DNA from: Phycisphaerae bacterium
GTDB lineage: Bacteria; Planctomycetota; Phycisphaerae; Phycisphaerales; UBA1924
Direction of reading: 5' to 3'
Assembly: GCA_016794925.1 (NCBI GenBank)
Contig: JAEUIW010000008.1
Span: forward strand, 1 to 64,000
Length of the DNA stretch: 64,000 nucleotides
Under the pieces are notes generated by a model. That model saw only the letters and a list, made by a program, of their open reading frames with translations, was not told the DNA's origin and ran no database searches. Below are positions 19,525-28,700 of this stretch, piece by piece. Each line of letters starts with the position of its first letter. The stretch's first letter is position 1. The translations under genes were made by a program, and so were the position numbers.

Positions 19525-21264
19525 TCACTCCTCCGCGAGCGTCTCCCGCACCACCTCGTCGAGCGAGGTCTGCCCCTCGTAGATCGCCAAGAGGCCGCAC
19601 TCGCGCAGCGTCCGCATGCCGAACTTGCGGGCCTGGTTCCGCAGCGAGTTGGTGTTCGCCCGCTTCATGATCAGCTCGCGCATCTGGTCGTTCACGGCCA
19701 TGATCTCGAAGATCGCCATCCGCCCCCGGTACCCCGACCCGAAGCAGTTGTCGCACCCCTTGCCCCGCGCGAACCGCTGCCCCCGCACCTCCTCGGGCGT
19801 GAGCGAGAGTTCCATCAGCTCCTCCTCCTTGGGCTCGTAGAACTCCTTGCACTTGGGGCAGATCGTCCGCGTCAGCCGCTGCGCCACCACGCCCTCCATG
19901 GTCGCCGTGAGCAGGAACGGCTCCAGGCCCAGGTCCACCAGACGCACCACGCTGCTGGGCGCGTCGTTGGTGTGCAGCGTGCTGAGCACGAGGTGCCCCG
20001 TCAGCGACGCCTGCACGGCGATCTGCGCCGTCTCCAGGTCGCGGATCTCGCCCACCAGGATCACGTCCGGGTCCTGACGCAGGAAGCTCCGCAGCAGCTT
20101 CGCGAACGTCGTCTCCGCTTCGGTGTTCACCTGGCACTGGCACAACCCGTCGATGTCGTACTCGACCGGGTCCTCCGCCGTCAGGACCTTGGTCTCGATG
20201 TCGTTGAGCTCCATCAGCGCCGCGTACAGCGTCGTGGTCTTGCCCGAGCCCGTCGGGCCCGTCACGATCACGATCCCGTTGGGCTTGTTGATCAGCTTGC
20301 GGAAGTTGAGCAGGTCGTCGTCGCGCATCCCGATCCGGTCCAGCGACAGCTTCACGTTCGACCGGTCCAGCACCCGCATCACCACGCTCTCGCCGTGCAT
20401 CGTCGGCAGCACGCTCACGCGCAGGTCGATCGGCGCGCCGCCCAGCACCAGCTCGATGCGGCCGTCCTGCGGCAGCCGACGCTCCGCGATGTCCATCTTC
20501 GCCATGACCTTCACGCGGCTGGTGATCGCCGGGCCCAGATGCTTGGGCGGCGGCACCATCTCGTACAGCACCCCGTCGATGCGGTACCGCATCTTGAACT
20601 CGTCCTCGAACGGCTCGAAGTGGATGTCCGACGCCTTGTCCTTGATCGCCTGCAGCAGCACCAGGTTCAGCAGCTTGATGACCTTGTTGTCCTCGGCCGC
20701 CTCCATGACCGCGTCCAGGTCGATCGACTCCCCCCGCTTGACACCCGCGAGGCTCGCCAGTTTCTGGTCGCTCGCCAGCTCGCTCACCACGTCCACCACC
20801 GACTCGGTCTTGCTGTAGTGCTTCCGGATGATCCCGTCGATCTGCTCGGGGTCCGACACCACCGCGTCCACGCTGAAGCCCATCAGCAGCTTGAGGTCGT
20901 CAACCGCCCGGAAATTGTCCGGGCTCTTCATGGCGATCTTCACCCGCTTGCTGACCTTGTTGAACGCGATCGGGACGATCTGGTACGCCTGCACGGTCTC
21001 GGCGTTGAGCGCCCCCTTCACCTCGTCGTTCAACTCCAGCTTCGAGAGGTCCTCGTACGGCAACCCCGCCTGACCCGCCAGACCCTCACGAACATCCCGT
21101 TCCGTACAATATCCTAATTCAACGAGCAGCTGGCCGAGCGGCACCTTTCTGGTCTTCTGGACCGCCAATGCCTCGTGCACCTTCTCCCGGGTGACCTTGC
21201 CAAGCTTGGTCAGCACGCGGCCGAGCTTCCGGCCCTTCATTTCCTGAAAGTCGATCGCGTTCAT
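19525..21264 (-). CDS. gspE: Type II secretion / pilus assembly ATPase GspE (PilB type)
   Basis: A 579-residue hexameric cytoplasmic ATPase that drives pseudopilus assembly. The N-terminal 150 residues hold two MshEN-like half repeats (KLGRVLTKLGKVTREK and PLGQLLVELGYCTERD), a domain that binds cyclic di-GMP in some homologues. The Walker A motif GPTGSGKTTTLY is near residue 334, the Asp box and Walker B (DPDVILVGEIRD) follow near 395, the His box is in GHLVLSTLHTND, and a zinc-binding pair of motifs CPKC and CDNC lies near 445-490. It is the first gene of the transcript that continues with gspF and the pseudopilins. A sigma70-like promoter and a 133-nt leader precede it. Confidence 0.93.
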   Translation of the reverse strand: MNAIDFQEMKGRKLGRVLTKLGKVTREKVHEALAVQKTRKVPLGQLLVELGYCTERDVREGLAGQAGLPYEDLSKLELNDEVKGALNAETVQAYQIVPIAFNKVSKRVKIAMKSPDNFRAVDDLKLLMGFSVDAVVSDPEQIDGIIRKHYSKTESVVDVVSELASDQKLASLAGVKRGESIDLDAVMEAAEDNKVIKLLNLVLLQAIKDKASDIHFEPFEDEFKMRYRIDGVLYEMVPPPKHLGPAITSRVKVMAKMDIAERRLPQDGRIELVLGGAPIDLRVSVLPTMHGESVVMRVLDRSNVKLSLDRIGMRDDDLLNFRKLINKPNGIVIVTGPTGSGKTTTLYAALMELNDIETKVLTAEDPVEYDIDGLCQCQVNTEAETTFAKLLRSFLRQDPDVILVGEIRDLETAQIAVQASLTGHLVLSTLHTNDAPSSVVRLVDLGLEPFLLTATMEGVVAQRLTRTICPKCKEFYEPKEEELMELSLTPEEVRGQRFARGKGCDNCFGSGYRGRMAIFEIMAVNDQMRELIMKRANTNSLRNQARKFGMRTLRECGLLAIYEGQTSLDEVVRETLAEE

Positions 21265-21403
21265 CGCTTCACGGATCCTCTATTCCCCGCCGAAGGCTCA
21301 AACAAACCGCGCACAACGATCGAACCGGCTGACGCGCGCCGCACCCTTACCATTTGACACGATTTCGTCGGTTGGTTCCAACAAATAGCGTCAATGCAGC
21401 GGA

Positions 21404-21431
21404 ATATTAAATTCCGACATTGTCATTTCAA
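21404..21431 (-). promoter_or_regulatory. Sigma70-like promoter of gspE operon with palindrome on the -10
   Basis: On the minus strand TTGAAA (21426-21431) and TAATAT (21404-21409) are separated by 16 nt. This is the most AT-rich stretch of the cluster. The -10 lies inside the inverted repeat GGAAT-ATTAA-ATTCC (21401-21415), a possible operator. The gspE start is about 133 nt downstream. Confidence 0.55.
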
Positions 21432-21483
21432 GCATTAAACCGAACCAGATTGTGACATCGAACGTATTCTGAATCCGAACAAA

Positions 21484-22602
21484 TCACTTCTCGTCAACGT
21501 CTTCGATGTCCATGTCCGCCCGACCGACAGTCCGTCCCAGCTTGTGAACCTTGTCTCGAAGATCGCCGGGGTTCTTCGCCTTGTCGATCATCTCCTCAGC
21601 GGACACCATTCCGCGGCTGTAGAGAGACCAAAGGTGATCGTCCAATAACTGCATTCCGAACTTCTTCCCCGTCTGGATCATCGAGTCAATGCGGAAGGTC
21701 TTGTTGTCGCGGATCAGATTCTGAATGGCGGGTGTCACGACCAGGAACTCGTACGCCGCGACCATTCCACCCGTGTCCACCCGCGGCAGCAACGCCTGGC
21801 TGAGCACGCAGATGAGCGACGTGCTGAGCTGAATTCTGATCTGGTTCTGTTGGGTGACGGGGAACGCGTCCACCACACGGTCGATGGTCTTGGCGGCACC
21901 CGTGGTGTGGAGCGTGGCGAACACCAAGTGGCCCGTCTCGGCGGCGCGGATGGCCGATTCGATCGTCTCCAGGTCGCGCATTTCACCGACCAGAATCACG
22001 TCGGGGTCGGAGCGGAGCACCCGCTTCAGGGCTTCCGCGAATGTGGGGACGTCCGTCCCGACCTCGCGCTGGTTGATGATCGATTTCTTGTGGAAATGGA
22101 AATACTCGATCGGGTCTTCCATCGTGACGATGTGCCGCTCGAAATTCATGTTGACGTAATCGATCATTGTCGCCAGCGACGTGGTCTTGCCCGAACCGGT
22201 GGGGCCGGTCACCAGGAACATGCCGCGCGGGCGGCGGATCAGCTCGCGGCAGATCTGCGGCAGTCCGATCTCCTCGAACGTCAGCAGCCGCTTGGGGATC
22301 TGGCGGCAGACGATCGCCAGATCGTTCCGCTGGCGGAAGATCGAGACGCGGAAGCGGGCCGCGTCGCCGTAGGAGAAGCCGAAGTCGCACCCGCCCCGCT
22401 CCTGCAGCTCCTGCTGCTTGGCCTCGGGCGCGATCGACTTCATGAGCGTGACCATGTCGTCGGAATCGAGGACCTTGGTCTGGAGATTCTTGAGCCGGCC
22501 GTGGTGCCGGATGGTGGGCGGCCGCCCCACCGTCAGGTGCAGGTCGCTGCAATTGAGCTTGACGACCGTGTCAAGCAGGCGGTCCATCTGGATCGTCGAC
22601 AT
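21484..22602 (-). CDS. pilT: Pilus retraction ATPase PilT
   Basis: A 372-residue ATPase that depolymerises type IV pili. The start is the ATG at 22602, preceded by AAGGAGA at about 8 nt; the longer open frame to 22869 is spurious. It begins MSTIQMDRLLDTVVKLNCSDLHLTVG, as PilT proteins do. Walker A GPTGSGKTTSLATMIDY is near residue 132, Walker B is in DPDVILVGEMRDLETI and the His box in GHLVFATLHTTGA. It lacks the N-terminal MshEN region and the zinc motif of the assembly ATPases, which separates it from them. The presence of a retraction motor argues that this cluster makes a dynamic pilus and not only a secretion pseudopilus. Confidence 0.92.
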   Translation of the reverse strand: MSTIQMDRLLDTVVKLNCSDLHLTVGRPPTIRHHGRLKNLQTKVLDSDDMVTLMKSIAPEAKQQELQERGGCDFGFSYGDAARFRVSIFRQRNDLAIVCRQIPKRLLTFEEIGLPQICRELIRRPRGMFLVTGPTGSGKTTSLATMIDYVNMNFERHIVTMEDPIEYFHFHKKSIINQREVGTDVPTFAEALKRVLRSDPDVILVGEMRDLETIESAIRAAETGHLVFATLHTTGAAKTIDRVVDAFPVTQQNQIRIQLSTSLICVLSQALLPRVDTGGMVAAYEFLVVTPAIQNLIRDNKTFRIDSMIQTGKKFGMQLLDDHLWSLYSRGMVSAEEMIDKAKNPGDLRDKVHKLGRTVGRADMDIEDVDEK

Positions 22603-22720
22603 GCCGCTCGTCTCCTTCGCCCTCGGGGCCGGCTCGCTCCGCCGGCCTGACTCTCGATTCCGACTCCCCCGGCAAGGCCCCCCGCTCCATCCCTTCGTGC
22701 CCGCCCGGGAGCCACGACGA

Positions 22721-24433
22721 TCACACCTGCGTGACCCGCGCCACCTCGTCGGGCGTGGTGGCGCCCTTGAGCACCTTGAGCTTGCCGTCCTCCACCAGCG
22801 GCCGCATCCCCGCGCGGAGCGCGGCCTGGCGGATCTCCTGGATCGGCGCCTGGTTGAACGCCATCTCACGGATGTCCGTGGTCATCTGCATCATCTCGAA
22901 GATGCCGAACCGACCCCGGTACCCGGTCTTGTTGCAGGCCCCGCACCCGACGTTCTTGCACACCCGCGTCTCCGCCTCCTTGGGCGTGATGCCGACCAGG
23001 GAGAGGTACTTGGGATCCGGCGACGGGTCGAGCGCCTTGCACTCCTTGCACAGCACCCGGATGAGCCGCTGGGCCATGATGGCCTGGATGGAGCTGGCCA
23101 CCAGGAACGGCTTCACGCCCATGTCGATGAGCCGCGTGATGGCGCTTGGCGCGTCGTTGGTGTGCAGGGTGCTGAACACCAGGTGGCCGGTGAGCGCGGC
23201 CTGAATGGCGATCTCGGCCACCTCACGGTCGCGGATCTCGCCGATCAGGATCACGTTCGGCGCCTGACGCAGCATGGTCCGCAGGATGACGGGGAACGTG
23301 AGGCCGATTTTCTCGCGGACCTGGCACTGGTTGATGCCGTTGAAGTTGTACTCGATCGGGTCCTCGGCGGTGATGATCTTCCGGTCCGGCTTGTTCAGCA
23401 CGTCCAGCGCCGAATAGAGCGTGGTGGTCTTGCCCGAGCCCGTCGGGCCCGTCACCAGGAAGATGCCGTTGGGCCTGCGGATGATCTTGTTGAAGCTCGC
23501 GAGGCTGTCCTCCTCGAACCCCAGATTGACCAGGCCGATCTTCACCGAGTCCGGACGCAGGATTCGACAGACGATGCTCTCGCCGTGGTACGCGGGGCAC
23601 GCCGAGACCCGGAAATCGATCTTGGTCCCGGCCACGTCCAGCTTGATGCGACCGTCCTGCGGGGCCCGCTTCTCGGCGATGTTCACCCCCGAGATCAGCT
23701 TCAACCGGCTGAGCAGCGCGTTCTGCATCCGCTTGGGCAGGTTGTCGCGCTCGATGCACACGCCGTCGATCCGGTACCGCAACCGCACCCGGTCGGCCAT
23801 GGGCTCGACGTGAACGTCGCTGGCCCGCATGTTCACCGCTTCGGTGAGGATGCGGTTCACCAGCCGAACGATCGGCGCATCCTCCGACGCGATGTCGATC
23901 GACTTGTCCACGCTCTTGTCGACCGACTTGTCGATCGATCGGTCGATCGACTCGCTCAGCAGCGAGTCCGTCGGGGCCACGCTCCCGGCACCCTTGGGCG
24001 CCTTCAGCTTGGTGTCGATGTAGTGCTTGATCTGCGATCGGGTCGCCAGGCGCGGCTCCACGTCCTTGTTCAGACGGAACCGCAGCATGTCCATCAGCTC
24101 GAGGTCGTTCGGGTCGTGCATGACCAGCGGCAGCTTGCCGTTGGTGGAGGCCATCGGCAGCACGAGGTGCTTCTTGATGAGCTCCTCGGAGATCGCCTTG
24201 GGGTCGATCAGACGAGTCACCGCGTCGCTGGAAAGATCGACGTACTCCATCCCGAACTGGTTCGCCAGGGCCTTGGCGAGCTGGTCTTCCTTGATCAGGC
24301 CCTTCTCCGCCAGCACATCGCCGATCCGCTTGCCGGCGCTCTTGGCCTCCTTCGCCGCCAACTCGACCTGGTCGGCGGTGACGACCCCCCATCCCACCAG
24401 CACGTCGCCCAGTCTCTTGCGTGATCGTGCCAT
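22721..24433 (-). CDS. pilB: Second assembly ATPase, PilB/GspE family
   Basis: A 570-residue paralogue of gspE, first gene of the cluster. The ATG at 24433 gives the N-terminus MARSRKRLGDVLVGWGVVTADQ, the beginning of an MshEN-type domain whose second half repeat is RIGDVLAEKGLIKEDQ. Walker A GPTGSGKTTTLY is near residue 326, Walker B in APNVILIGEIRD, the His box in GHLVFSTLHTND, and the zinc ligands in LCKECK and CGACNKTGY near 460-510. Between the N-terminal domain and the ATPase, near residues 165-185, is an unusual linker of five S-(I/V)-D-(K/R) tetrads. pilT follows after 118 nt. The gene symbol follows the family; which of the two assembly ATPases serves pili and which serves secretion is not decidable here. 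Confidence 0.88.
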   Translation of the reverse strand: MARSRKRLGDVLVGWGVVTADQVELAAKEAKSAGKRIGDVLAEKGLIKEDQLAKALANQFGMEYVDLSSDAVTRLIDPKAISEELIKKHLVLPMASTNGKLPLVMHDPNDLELMDMLRFRLNKDVEPRLATRSQIKHYIDTKLKAPKGAGSVAPTDSLLSESIDRSIDKSVDKSVDKSIDIASEDAPIVRLVNRILTEAVNMRASDVHVEPMADRVRLRYRIDGVCIERDNLPKRMQNALLSRLKLISGVNIAEKRAPQDGRIKLDVAGTKIDFRVSACPAYHGESIVCRILRPDSVKIGLVNLGFEEDSLASFNKIIRRPNGIFLVTGPTGSGKTTTLYSALDVLNKPDRKIITAEDPIEYNFNGINQCQVREKIGLTFPVILRTMLRQAPNVILIGEIRDREVAEIAIQAALTGHLVFSTLHTNDAPSAITRLIDMGVKPFLVASSIQAIMAQRLIRVLCKECKALDPSPDPKYLSLVGITPKEAETRVCKNVGCGACNKTGYRGRFGIFEMMQMTTDIREMAFNQAPIQEIRQAALRAGMRPLVEDGKLKVLKGATTPDEVARVTQV

Positions 24434-24645
24434 ATGAGCTGCGAATCCGCCTCCAGAACCGTCTCGGACCACCCGGTCCGTCCCGGGGAATACGTCGTCC
24501 CGATCCCGACTTCACCCCGTGCCGCGCCGAGGGGAAAGGCATCCTAGCAACCGCCGCCGCGGCCGATCTGCTCCCCGTCACACGCACCCGCCCGCGCGCG
24601 GCGACCGAGTCGTCCGACGTACCCTCCCCCGAACGAGGACCCGCC

Positions 24646-25341
24646 TTGCCAACCACCCGCACGTCACAAACACGCCCGCCACGACGAGCCGCGGGAAATC
24701 GGCTGCTGGTTACCGCCGGTCCCACCCACGAACCCATCGACGCCGTGCGCTACCTCGCCAACCGCTCATCGGGGCGGCTGGGGATCGCGCTGGCGGAAGC
24801 CGCCGCGCGAACCGGCTGGACCGTCACCCTGCTCCTCGGCCCCACTCCCCGCGTGTGTTCCCATTCGAGCGTGAGAACCGAACGGTTCCAGACCACCGAG
24901 GATCTTCGCAGGCTCCTGGATCGTCACGCGCCGCGCTGCGATGTGCTCATCATGGCCGCGGCGGTCGCCGATTTCCGTCCGAAAACAACCCGTGCGACGC
25001 TCCGCGGCAAGACCCGGCGCGCGCGCACCGGTCTGACCCTGCGGCTGGAGGCCACCCCCGACCTGCTGGCCCGGTGCGGGAAGCGCAAGTCACGCGCGCA
25101 GTTCTTTGTCGGATTCGCGCTCGAACCCGACCGCACGCTCCTCGCTTCTGCGCGCGCGAAGCTGGCCCGCAAGCGGCTGGACCTGATCGTCGCCAACCCT
25201 CTCCGCACCATGGACTCCCAGGAGATCCGGGCGACGCTGCTCGCCCCGCAAGGCCCGCCCGAACCCACACCCGGACGCATGCGCAAGACCGCGTTCGCTC
25301 GGTGGCTGCTGGCGCAGATCCGGGCCCGACGCGCGCGCTGA
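24646..25341 (+). CDS. coaB: Phosphopantothenate--cysteine ligase, stand-alone CoaB
   Basis: CoaB joins 4'-phosphopantothenate to cysteine with a nucleotide triphosphate in coenzyme A synthesis. The 231-residue protein shows NRLLVTAGPTHEPIDAVRYLANRSSGRLG (nucleotide and substrate loop), VLIMAAAVADFRPK and DLIVANPL, all classic for the CoaB domain. The start chosen is the TTG at 24646, six nt after GAGGA (24635-24639); no ATG lies between the conserved region and the upstream gene, and the longer frame to 24421 overlaps pilB. Most bacteria have CoaC (the decarboxylase) fused in front of CoaB; here the flavoprotein half is absent and must be encoded elsewhere. The gene is divergent from pilB. 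Confidence 0.88.
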   Translation: MPTTRTSQTRPPRRAAGNRLLVTAGPTHEPIDAVRYLANRSSGRLGIALAEAAARTGWTVTLLLGPTPRVCSHSSVRTERFQTTEDLRRLLDRHAPRCDVLIMAAAVADFRPKTTRATLRGKTRRARTGLTLRLEATPDLLARCGKRKSRAQFFVGFALEPDRTLLASARAKLARKRLDLIVANPLRTMDSQEIRATLLAPQGPPEPTPGRMRKTAFARWLLAQIRARRAR

Positions 25342-25378: not shown

Positions 25379-27313
25379 ATGCCGGCCCGAGAGACGCCCG
25401 ATCCGAACAAGCGACCCGGAGCGACCGGCGGCGGGCGCGGCAAGCCCGCGCCGAAGGGCCCCTTGAAACCCACGCGCGTGCCCCCCGCCGGGTCCCATCC
25501 GCCCCGGCGCGACGGTCCGAACCCGACATCACGCCGCCTCGGCCCGCCCCGTGGCGTCGCCCCGCACCCCCGCCCAACCCAGGGTCGGCTGCTCAACATC
25601 GTTCATGAGGATGACGACCTGCTCGTCGTTGACAAGCCGCCGGGCTTGCTCTCGGCCTCCCCCGAGCCGCAGCGCCAACCCACCCTCTTCGACCTTGTGA
25701 AGCAGCACGTCCGCGACTCGATGCGCCGCAAGACCAAGCGCGGACAGGGCCCGAAAGCGTACATCATCCACCGGCTCGATCGCGAGGCCAGCGGGCTGCT
25801 GGTCTTCGCCAAGTCCGAGCGTGCATTCATCTGGCTGAAAGAGGATTTCAAGGCCAAGCGCGTCCACCGCAATTATCTCGCCCTGGCCGAGGGAGTCGTC
25901 GGCCCGCCCGGGCACGCCGGGACGGTCCAGACGTTCCTGATCGAAGACGACCAGGGGCGTGTCACGAGCATGGACCTCTCCCAATCGCGGGCCAGCGACG
26001 TGCGCGATCAGGCCAAACTCGCGGTGACGCACTACCGGGTCGTCGCCGCGGCGAACGATCGGACCCTCCTCAACATCCGCCTCGAGACCGGCCGGAAGCA
26101 CCAGATCCGCGTCCACTTGGCCCGCTTGGGACACCCACTCGTGGGAGATCCGATCTACCGGGCCCGCACGGATCCACTCCGACGCCTCGGTCTGCACGCA
26201 TGCGACCTCGGTTTCAAGCACCCCGCGACGGGGATGAGCCTGCGGTTCCACAGCGATGCGACCAACCAGTTCTACGGCGCGGTGAGCATGACACCCCCGT
26301 CGAAGGCGGCCCAGAGCCCGACCGAGATGCACCGGACCCTCCCCGAGGACGACGCACCGGTCGGGCCCGCGTTCATCCCGGATCTTCCCTTGCCCAGGGA
26401 GGCGCATCCCACGTTCGCGGTCGCGGGTTCACTCTCCTCGGTGGGCTCCGCCGCGGTGATCGACCAGGAACAACGCTCGCCGGGCTCGATCGAGGGGAGC
26501 CCGACGAACCCATCCGGGCCCGCCCCCCGATCGTCCCGTGACGCCGCGCCACCCGCCTCGACCTCGTGGGATGCGGTCGCGCCGTGGTACGACTCGTATC
26601 TGACCGGCGGGGGCTCGGACCATTACACCAACACGCTGATACCGGGCACATTGCGGCTCGTCCAACCGCGTCCCGGCGCTCGCCTGCTTGACCTCGCGTG
26701 CGGGCAAGGCATTCTGACTCGGGCGCTGGCGGAGTCCGGGGCCCAGGTCCTGGGGGTCGATTCGTCGCCGCGCCTGCTCGACACGGCCCGCAAGCACCCG
26801 TCACGCGGAGCGCCGATCGACTATCGGCTCTGCGATGCACGCGAACTTGACTCGCTGGGCGTGACCGGGTTGGACGCGTGCACCTGCCTCATGGGGCTGG
26901 GGAACATCGACCCGCTGGACGCGGTGCTGCCCGCGATCGCGCGCGCATTAAGGCCCGGGGGCGCATTTGTTTTTGTGGTCTCGCACCCCGCATTCCGCGC
27001 GCCCGTTCAGTCATCGTGGGGTTGGGATCCCAAGGCCAACCGACAATACCGGCGTCTCGACGGGTACCTGTCGAGCGCCCAGCACCCGATCGCGATGCAC
27101 CCGGGCAAGGACCCGGGCGTAACGACCTGGACGTTCCACCGCCCACTCCAGACGTATGTCAGGCTTCTGGCCGAGGCGGGTCTGGTGATCGATGCGCTCG
27201 AGGAATGGCCGGGTCAGCGCGCGAGTCAGCCCGGTCCCCGGGCCGCCGAGGAGAACCGGGCGCGGCGCGAGATCCCGCTTTTTCTGGCCGTCCGCGCGCG
27301 TCGGCTTGCTTGA
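25379..27313 (+). CDS. RluA-family pseudouridine synthase fused to a SAM methyltransferase
   Basis: A 644-residue fusion. Residues 1-70 are a Pro/Arg-rich, probably disordered tail. Residues 75-305 are an RluA-type RNA pseudouridine synthase: VDKPPGLLS, the catalytic Asp in HRLDREASGLLVFAKS near residue 127, and ETGRKHQIRVHLARLGHPLVGDP. A linker of about 90 residues follows. Residues 398-640 are a class I methyltransferase: WYDSYL, the SAM-binding LLDLACGQGILTRAL near 437, and GVDSSPRLLD. The two parts share one uninterrupted frame with no internal stop, so this is a true fusion and not two genes. The product could modify one RNA twice, but the methyltransferase could also act on a small molecule. 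The mRNA is predicted to be leaderless. Confidence 0.85.
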   Translation: MPARETPDPNKRPGATGGGRGKPAPKGPLKPTRVPPAGSHPPRRDGPNPTSRRLGPPRGVAPHPRPTQGRLLNIVHEDDDLLVVDKPPGLLSASPEPQRQPTLFDLVKQHVRDSMRRKTKRGQGPKAYIIHRLDREASGLLVFAKSERAFIWLKEDFKAKRVHRNYLALAEGVVGPPGHAGTVQTFLIEDDQGRVTSMDLSQSRASDVRDQAKLAVTHYRVVAAANDRTLLNIRLETGRKHQIRVHLARLGHPLVGDPIYRARTDPLRRLGLHACDLGFKHPATGMSLRFHSDATNQFYGAVSMTPPSKAAQSPTEMHRTLPEDDAPVGPAFIPDLPLPREAHPTFAVAGSLSSVGSAAVIDQEQRSPGSIEGSPTNPSGPAPRSSRDAAPPASTSWDAVAPWYDSYLTGGGSDHYTNTLIPGTLRLVQPRPGARLLDLACGQGILTRALAESGAQVLGVDSSPRLLDTARKHPSRGAPIDYRLCDARELDSLGVTGLDACTCLMGLGNIDPLDAVLPAIARALRPGGAFVFVVSHPAFRAPVQSSWGWDPKANRQYRRLDGYLSSAQHPIAMHPGKDPGVTTWTFHRPLQTYVRLLAEAGLVIDALEEWPGQRASQPGPRAAEENRARREIPLFLAVRARRLA

Positions 27314-27391: not shown

Positions 27392-27470
27392 TGAGTGTCC
27401 AGAATGAACGCGCAGAGAGACGCGTTGCACGCCCACGGAAGGGATGGTTTTCGGAGCAGAGGAGTTGAAC

Positions 27471-28700
27471 ATGTCGCCGATTCATCGGAGCGCTTGGGCG
27501 CCTGGTTTTGTACTCGCGGTTGTGTCGGGATCGGCGTGGGCCCAACCCTCGTTCGAAGGGATCGGGAGCTTGCCGAACTCGAACCGTGGGTCGAGTTCGC
27601 TGGCGATCTCGCGTGACGGCACAACCATCGTGGGAAAGGCGCTCACGGCGAATGCGCCCGTGGCGATGCGGAAAGTGGGCTCGGGCCCACTTTCGTCGCT
27701 GGGCGTGCTGAACAACTACCTCTCGAGCTACGCCAACGCCTGCAGCGGCGACGGCCTTCGCGTCGTCGGTCAGTGCAACACGCTGACGTCCTCGACGGCC
27801 TTTCTGTGGACGCTCTCGGGCGGCATGGTTGACATGGGTTCGATGCTGCCGGGCCAGTCTTCCGCGGCGTACGGCATCTCGGCCGACGGCACGATCATCG
27901 TGGGCACTTCAGGGACGTCGGCGTTCCGCTGGACGGCGACGAGCGGGATGGTGAACATCGGGACGCTGGGCGGCACCGGCACCTCGACCATCGCGGTGGG
28001 CATCTCGGCCGATGGCTCGACGATCGTCGGCAGTTCCGGGAATCAGGCCGTGCGGAAGGTTGGGACGCAGCCGTTGGCGGGCCTGGGCGATCTGCCGGGC
28101 AGCGCCGAATTTTCCTACGCCACGGCGGCCTCGGCCGATGGCTCGGCGATTGTCGGGGTGGGCACCTCGACCCTGGGAACGGAGGCGTTCCGCTGGACGG
28201 CGGCGAGCGGGATGGTGGGCCTGGGCTCCCTGGTTGATCCGTTCGACGATTTTTACTCGGAGGCGTACGCGGTGTCGCCCGACGGCGCCTTCGTGGGCGG
28301 TCAGAGTGTGTACGCGGGCGACGACGTGGCGTTCCTGTGGTCGGAGAGCCTGGGGATGGTCGACATCCGGGCGTACCTGCTCGCGCTGGGCGTGTTGAAC
28401 GTCGAGGATTGGCAGCTCGAGCGGGCCACGGGGATCACTTCCGACGGCACCGTGCTGACGATCGTCGGCTTTGGCTTGAACCCGGCGGGCACGACCGAGG
28501 GCTGGAAGGCGCGCGTGCTGATCCCCGCCGCGACTTGCCCGGGCGATTTCAACGGCGATACGTCCGTCGATGATTTCGATTATTTCGACTTCCTCAACGC
28601 CTTCTTCGCCAACGACATGAGCGCCGACTTCAACGGCGACACGTCCGTCGACGACTTCGACTATTTCGATTTCCTCAACGCCTTCTTCGCCAGCTGCTGA
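27471..28700 (+). CDS. Exported HAF-repeat protein with two C-terminal dockerin-like modules
   Basis: A 409-residue secreted protein. The ATG at 27471 is set by AGAGGAG 6 nt upstream and gives a signal peptide ending SGSAWA|Q near residue 24. Residues 30-350 contain repeats of the HAF type (for example SGMVDMGSM, FRWTATSGMVNIGTLGG, ADGSTIVG, FRWTAASGMVGLG), which probably form a beta-propeller. The C-terminus is C-P-G followed by two nearly identical calcium loops, each DFNGDTSVDDFDYFDFLNAF, and a final S-C before the stop. The D-x-N/D-x-D-x-S/T-x-D-D pattern is that of dockerin/EF-hand loops. The module recurs on two other exported proteins in this window and on a decayed copy. Its binding partner is unknown. 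Confidence 0.85.
   Translation: MSPIHRSAWAPGFVLAVVSGSAWAQPSFEGIGSLPNSNRGSSSLAISRDGTTIVGKALTANAPVAMRKVGSGPLSSLGVLNNYLSSYANACSGDGLRVVGQCNTLTSSTAFLWTLSGGMVDMGSMLPGQSSAAYGISADGTIIVGTSGTSAFRWTATSGMVNIGTLGGTGTSTIAVGISADGSTIVGSSGNQAVRKVGTQPLAGLGDLPGSAEFSYATAASADGSAIVGVGTSTLGTEAFRWTAASGMVGLGSLVDPFDDFYSEAYAVSPDGAFVGGQSVYAGDDVAFLWSESLGMVDIRAYLLALGVLNVEDWQLERATGITSDGTVLTIVGFGLNPAGTTEGWKARVLIPAATCPGDFNGDTSVDDFDYFDFLNAFFANDMSADFNGDTSVDDFDYFDFLNAFFASC

Follow-up and report, generated by a model that had tools for sequence, protein, structure and literature searches.

What might a protein do that joins, in a single chain, a pseudouridine synthase (PUS) domain of the RluA type and a class I methyltransferase (MT)? 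The question is raised by a gene in the window, a stretch of 64,000 nucleotides from a Phycisphaerae bacterium (contig JAEUIW010000008.1), whose family belongs to the Phycisphaerales of the Planctomycetota. A first-pass annotation of this DNA had placed the signatures of both enzymes, HRLDREASG and LLDLACGQG, in one frame of 644 residues, knew of no described enzyme with this pairing, and supposed that it could make a methylated pseudouridine in one pass. The frame is as claimed: it runs uninterrupted from ATG to stop with both catalytic signatures inside (Table 1), and the reverse strand across 25379-27313 contains stops. Internal starts may give rise to a separate MT protein. The view that the pairing is undescribed agrees with a literature search of titles and abstract openings, most subscription journals lying outside it, in which no RluA-methyltransferase fusion is mentioned; protein databases may well carry fusion proteins under automatic names.

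Table 1. Features of the fused gene and its upstream neighbor, by position in the window.
Feature	Position	Strand	Evidence
Fused gene, 644 aa: RluA-type PUS domain, linker, class I MT	25379..27313	+	open frame, Pfam, comparative data
N-terminal tail, aa 1-69, Pro/Arg/Lys-rich, predicted disordered	25379..25585	+	AlphaFold pLDDT <50
PUS domain, ~aa 72-300	25592..26278	+	PF00849 match; nearest structure 2i82
HRLDREASG, aa 131-139, catalytic Asp134	25769..25795	+	sequence; alignment with fused rows and paralogs
Tyr166 of PUS	25874..25876	+	present in all of 18 intact fused PUS; missing from some eroded rows
GRKHQIR motif of PUS	26090..26110	+	alignment
Linker, aa 310-391, predicted disordered	26306..26551	+	pLDDT <50
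Class I MT domain, aa 392-644	26552..27310	+	Pfam; model pLDDT 92.7; nearest structures 3e8s, 3g5l, 3bkw
SAM motif I, LLDLACGQG, aa 436-444	26684..26710	+	sequence; D, C, G, G in 124/124 fused rows
CoaB-type phosphopantothenate-cysteine ligase, upstream neighbor outside the fusion	24421..25341	+	PF04127, E 2.2e-53

The N-terminal half is matched by the Pfam model PseudoU_synth_2 (PF00849) over aa 80-248, with an E-value of 9.9e-30 and 104.2 bits against a curated cut-off of 26.8. By sequence its nearest structures are those of RluD and RluA, and a Foldseek search places the RluA-RNA complex 2i82 closest (E 5.3e-21). It shares with RluA, RluC, RluD, and TruC the PF00849 domain and, in the window's copy, intact HRLD, Tyr, and GRxxQIR elements, which we take to be the PUS catalytic signature, Tyr166 presumably being the second active-site residue and GRKHQIR the version of the GRxxQIR active-site motif. 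It differs from these enzymes in carrying an MT and in branching apart from 45 non-fused domains, and its scores lie below the NCBIfam cut-offs for rluA_subfam (TIGR00005, 176.8 bits vs 192.7), RluD (NF008385, 122.6 vs 351), RluA (NF007543, 86.6 vs 286), RluC (NF008249, 79.0 vs 378), and TruC (NF008321, 84.2 vs 328). Pfam reports no S4 domain in the fused protein.

The C-terminal half is matched by several class I models of Pfam, among them Methyltransf_25 (the best, E 3.9e-16; aa 437-528) and Methyltransf_11 (E 6e-16). Both of these lie inside aa 437-532 and, like the others, exceed their curated cut-offs; these matches, the fold, and a motif I of the form DxxCGxG place it among the class I SAM-dependent methyltransferases. 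Its nearest structure by sequence is 3bkw (E 1.1e-16), titled SAM-dependent methyltransferase, and the titles of 3bkw, 3e8s, and 3g5l say nothing narrower than putative or SAM-dependent methyltransferase. The best named NCBIfam models are those of small-molecule enzymes (CpaM, UbiE, UbiG), every one of which it matches far below the cut-off (CpaM, the best, 57.2 bits vs 180; UbiG 49.6 vs 102.95), and it likewise stays under the equivalog or subfamily cut-offs of UbiE, UbiG, BioC, and CpaM. Its structural neighbors include ToxA, CypM, and UbiG as well as the RNA enzymes Bud23 and METTL6, and among the VIA-align matches listed small-molecule and RNA methyltransferases are mixed at Z-scores of about 20 to 25. 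Fold and SAM motif are common to this MT and the UbiE/UbiG/Methyltransf_11-type class I enzymes, whereas invariant signature residues in its own C-terminal half set it apart from them.

The AlphaFold model of the whole protein consists of two confident domains, with blocks mostly at pLDDT >90, on either side of the disordered stretch at aa 310-391; its pTM is only 0.46, and therefore no fixed packing of the PUS and MT domains is predicted. The region of up to 60 aa preceding the PUS domain has a mean net charge of +10 in 37 fused rows, and control frames one of +4 (sd 6); the signal is a weak one of about one standard deviation, and a lower basicity is seen in several of the eroded PUS domains. 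Set against the control frames it is too weak to prove that the tail binds RNA, and we rejected it as such proof; as a sequence feature, the basic tail is a suggestive hint of such binding.

On the same strand, a CoaB-like frame lies upstream of the fusion in 61 of the 73 family loci with enough sequence; this conserved neighbor says nothing of RNA and offers no functional lead. Elsewhere in the window, the gene at 27444-28700 (+) codes for a 418-aa protein without a Pfam match, whose C-terminal Asp-rich segment appears by eye to be duplicated and is presumably dockerin-like. A run of three adjacent type II/IV secretion (pilus) ATPase-like genes occupies 19525-24472 (-); that at 22721-24472 is a T2SSE match and the other two were named by eye.

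The distribution of the fusion bears on whether the joined frame is real. Long frames arise easily in GC-rich DNA and shadow frames abound in this stretch, which could speak for two genes merged by an assembly or frame error. In a larger sample of the window's family (163 genomes, 112 of good quality), the MT is present in 127 genomes (92 of the 112 good ones); leaving out G385, and a second partial match in G368, both domains lie in one frame in 124 of the 126 genomes examined, the other two loci being cut at contig ends. The same joined frame recurs in four genomes of two other families, and these comparative data refute an artefact, which can hardly be entertained any longer. They also dispose of the proviso in the first-pass annotation that homologs might always be encoded as two unlinked genes. 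Its second proviso, an MT clearly of a small-molecule family, is neither borne out nor dismissed by the best NCBIfam models, which describe small-molecule enzymes but are all matched far below cut-off. In a sample of the order comprising 61 genomes (the window's own and 60 relatives; 37 in the window's family and 24 others), the MT is found in 26 of the 37 family genomes, every time in frame with a PUS domain, and as a separate gene in 3 of the 24 genomes outside the family. The PUS gene directly adjoins the separate MT gene in G041, while in G045 the MT gene is again separate and a related PUS is found on another contig.

When 82 PUS domains are placed in one tree, a branch with an SH-aLRT of 95 separates 37 fused domains from 45 non-fused RluA-type ones; among the latter, those of G041 and G045, in the tree as drawn, branch first and are closest to the fused ones. 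A 42-row MT tree likewise has the fused rows on one side (100/98). The simplest reading of these trees is a single fusion event. In all five tested family genomes without the MT (G001, G008, G015, G021, G026), the fused-type PUS subfamily is absent too, and they carry only other RluA paralogs.

Across the phylum, the MT is matched in 44 of 294 genomes with an E-value no higher than 1e-30, and the weakest of these matches are distant relatives. Thirty of the phylum-sample loci comprise 9 fused, 1 with an adjacent PUS, and 20 with the MT alone; the fused ones are from the window's family (5) and from the four genomes of the two other families (f15, f75). The phylum also contains a more remote group of MTs (E ~1e-31 to 1e-45), represented in G088, G290, G324, G177, G083, G194, G250, G106, G316, G062, and G323. 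The MT occurs alone in other Planctomycetota and, outside the phylum, in Chlamydiota, Patescibacteria, and a few others. Chlamydiota and Patescibacteria are lineages with small genomes, and retention of the MT there would thus suit a housekeeping role. At the 49 standalone MT loci with flanks, no RNA-modification operon was found, bar the PUS beside the MT in G041, which is also the only one of them with a fused-type PUS nearby; the neighbors are unrelated genes and give no operon clue to the function of the standalone MT. The chlamydial copies lie between a permease-like and a glmS-like gene (recognized from sequence, without a family search). In two Parachlamydiaceae (L074, L078), the standalone MT is near what by eye is an RlmI-like rRNA methyltransferase gene. 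Four loci titled Acidobacteria or Verrucomicrobia (L054, L051, L055, L062) share with the chlamydial loci the order of genes flanking the MT and are placed within Chlamydiota by the MT tree; these bin names are probably wrong.

The two halves of the fusion differ in the state of their active sites. With same-genome duplicates removed before counting, the PUS motif is readable in 123 of the 124 fusions (L281 from G404 ends before it). The window's copy retains every tested PUS residue together with an intact SAM motif, and 75 of the 123 fusions keep the Asp, Arg, Tyr, and the basic residue of GRxxQIR, 73 of them with the complete signature; L027, which has two substitutions and retains Asp, Arg, and Tyr, is counted among the 75 and was omitted from the intact set used for comparing columns. 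The remaining 48 are eroded: 11, those of G032 and G005 among them, have no catalytic Asp, and 37 have it with other losses. In all 45 non-fused RluA-type domains compared, those of G041 and G045 included, the catalytic Asp is present. Of the positions that never vary across the intact set, Arg132 is still present in 6% of the eroded rows and Gly238 in 2%, but Lys86, Gly139, Gly172, Gln242, and His273 in 98 to 100%, which indicates that the catalytic loop is lost first and a core remains. The MT behaves in the opposite way: none of the 124 rows, eroded ones included, departs from D, C, G, and G in motif I or from the family's H, P, R, W, and Y.

The PUS domains without the catalytic Asp are under purifying selection and are currently not decaying: their median dN/dS is 0.076 and that of their MTs 0.098 (4 close pairs, three from one genome trio). 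The corresponding values are 0.053 and 0.063 for eroded rows that keep the Asp (13 close pairs), and 0.105 and 0.113 for intact rows (36 close pairs), all from few and related pairs with high dS. The catalytic loss occurred at least once and, judging from the trees, probably several times. Mapped by parsimony onto an MT tree of 130 rows, the eroded and intact states require 7 changes; the starred branches of this tree taken alone force fewer, with a minimum of 2 for the Asp-less label and of 5 for the intact one. A single erosion event is disfavored by the MT trees, which place intact rows among eroded ones; yet, the AU test fails to reject a single eroded clade (p 0.148, 42-row tree), and 11 eroded rows group together in the PUS tree (96), but long branches meet there. 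Since the PUS tree, the MT trees, and the AU test point different ways, the number of losses is uncertain.

These observations bear directly on the one-pass idea, by which the PUS makes a pseudouridine and the MT methylates the same base or its ribose (m3-psi, m1-psi, or 2'-O-methyl-psi). The intact pairs of active sites in the window's copy and in the 75 fusions agree with it, as does the apparent gain or loss of fused PUS and MT as a unit, seen in the five MT-less genomes. A working PUS is needed for such a product, and with that site eroded in 48 fusions beside an unchanged MT the idea fails as a general function; the occurrence of the MT without a fused-type PUS in most lineages, including 48 of the 49 standalone loci, weighs against it too. 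Where both sites appear intact, as in the window's copy, it is possible. RlmH (PF02590), the usual m3-psi methyltransferase, might seem to lend it support, being found in 0/61 order genomes (the window's whole genome included) as against 8/14 control genomes, so that an m3-psi mark would need another enzyme. However, RlmH is missing from order genomes with and without the fusion alike, and its absence therefore gives no support either way. Position 1915 of the 23S rRNA may lack m3-psi in this order, or another enzyme may be used. A comparable pair is formed by RluD and RlmH, a pseudouridine synthase and then a methyltransferase acting on RNA (N3-methylation of 23S 1915), but PMC7694415 describes RlmH as a protein separate from the synthase, and it has by its Pfam name a SPOUT fold, whereas the fused MT matches class I models; moreover, the fused PUS is not the RluD-like paralog in the PUS tree. 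A paralog that we read as RluD-like (L004) is present in the window's genome. Replacement of RluD/RlmH by the fusion was rejected as a clear account, as RlmH is absent regardless of the fusion and an RluD-like paralog is still present. As an account of the fusion at large, one-pass synthesis is improbable.

Alternatively, the halves might have two separate jobs, the MT having a small-molecule or protein substrate that has nothing to do with RNA and the fusion serving just to couple expression. The small-molecule enzymes among the closest named models (CpaM, UbiE, UbiG) and structural neighbors (ToxA, CypM, UbiG), the free-standing MT proteins elsewhere, and the long, disordered linker of the window's copy are in keeping with this; the distance of all these named models from their cut-offs is not, and repeated catalytic loss under constraint in the PUS, with no split form in 124 readable family loci, is hard to explain by it, leaving it unlikely, if to be kept in mind. 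More improbable than either is a ribosome-assembly or RNA-folding factor in which binding matters more than either chemistry: modification enzymes with catalysis-free roles are known (PMC11301382, PMC11197891), and the fused PUS domains are constrained though probably dead, but the SAM motif I is intact and the other family residues equally fixed in every fusion, and hence MT catalysis appears to be needed.

We therefore favor, at a probability of roughly 0.45, an RNA-targeted methyltransferase with a built-in RluA-type PUS domain for RNA binding or remodeling, in which pseudouridylation is optional. The PUS domain, aided by the basic disordered N-terminal tail, would bind and open a structured RNA (rRNA or tRNA); in the window's species, it would probably still turn one uridine into pseudouridine, and the MT on its flexible linker would then methylate a site on that RNA or close to it. 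Both halves would thus act on one molecule, with methylation as the conserved output and pseudouridylation as an optional one. From its residues, the window's copy probably carries out both reactions, and in the many relatives whose PUS domain has no catalytic residues this domain would be retained as a binding or remodeling module, the eroded half probably serving to grip RNA.

RluA domains hold or remodel RNA; because of this, and given the precedents for catalysis-free roles, the PUS module likeliest does the same here. According to the respective papers, TruB and TrmA are tRNA chaperones with roles beyond catalysis (PMC11301382), and the activity of METTL15 is dispensable for mitoribosome assembly (PMC11197891). 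In these proteins, too, a role can outlast catalysis, but their inactive forms are mostly engineered, whereas here the loss is natural, repeated, and found in a domain fused to an active-looking MT. The folds of both halves are known; what is new is that they are combined, and that catalytic residues of the PUS have repeatedly been lost in nature beside a fixed MT.

In a more tentative formulation, these proteins may be RNA methyltransferases guided by an RluA-type domain that has, probably several times, turned into a dead yet strongly constrained RNA-binding module. If true, it would be shown directly that an RluA-type domain can be retained for its grip on RNA alone. The fusion itself ties an MT family found across Planctomycetota, Chlamydiota, and Patescibacteria to a domain from an RNA-binding enzyme, giving the family a testable substrate class. 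With a PUS domain that remains under selection after its catalytic residues are gone, it can also serve as a natural experiment on an old question, namely what preserves pseudouridine synthases: the pseudouridine they make, or their binding and folding of RNA.
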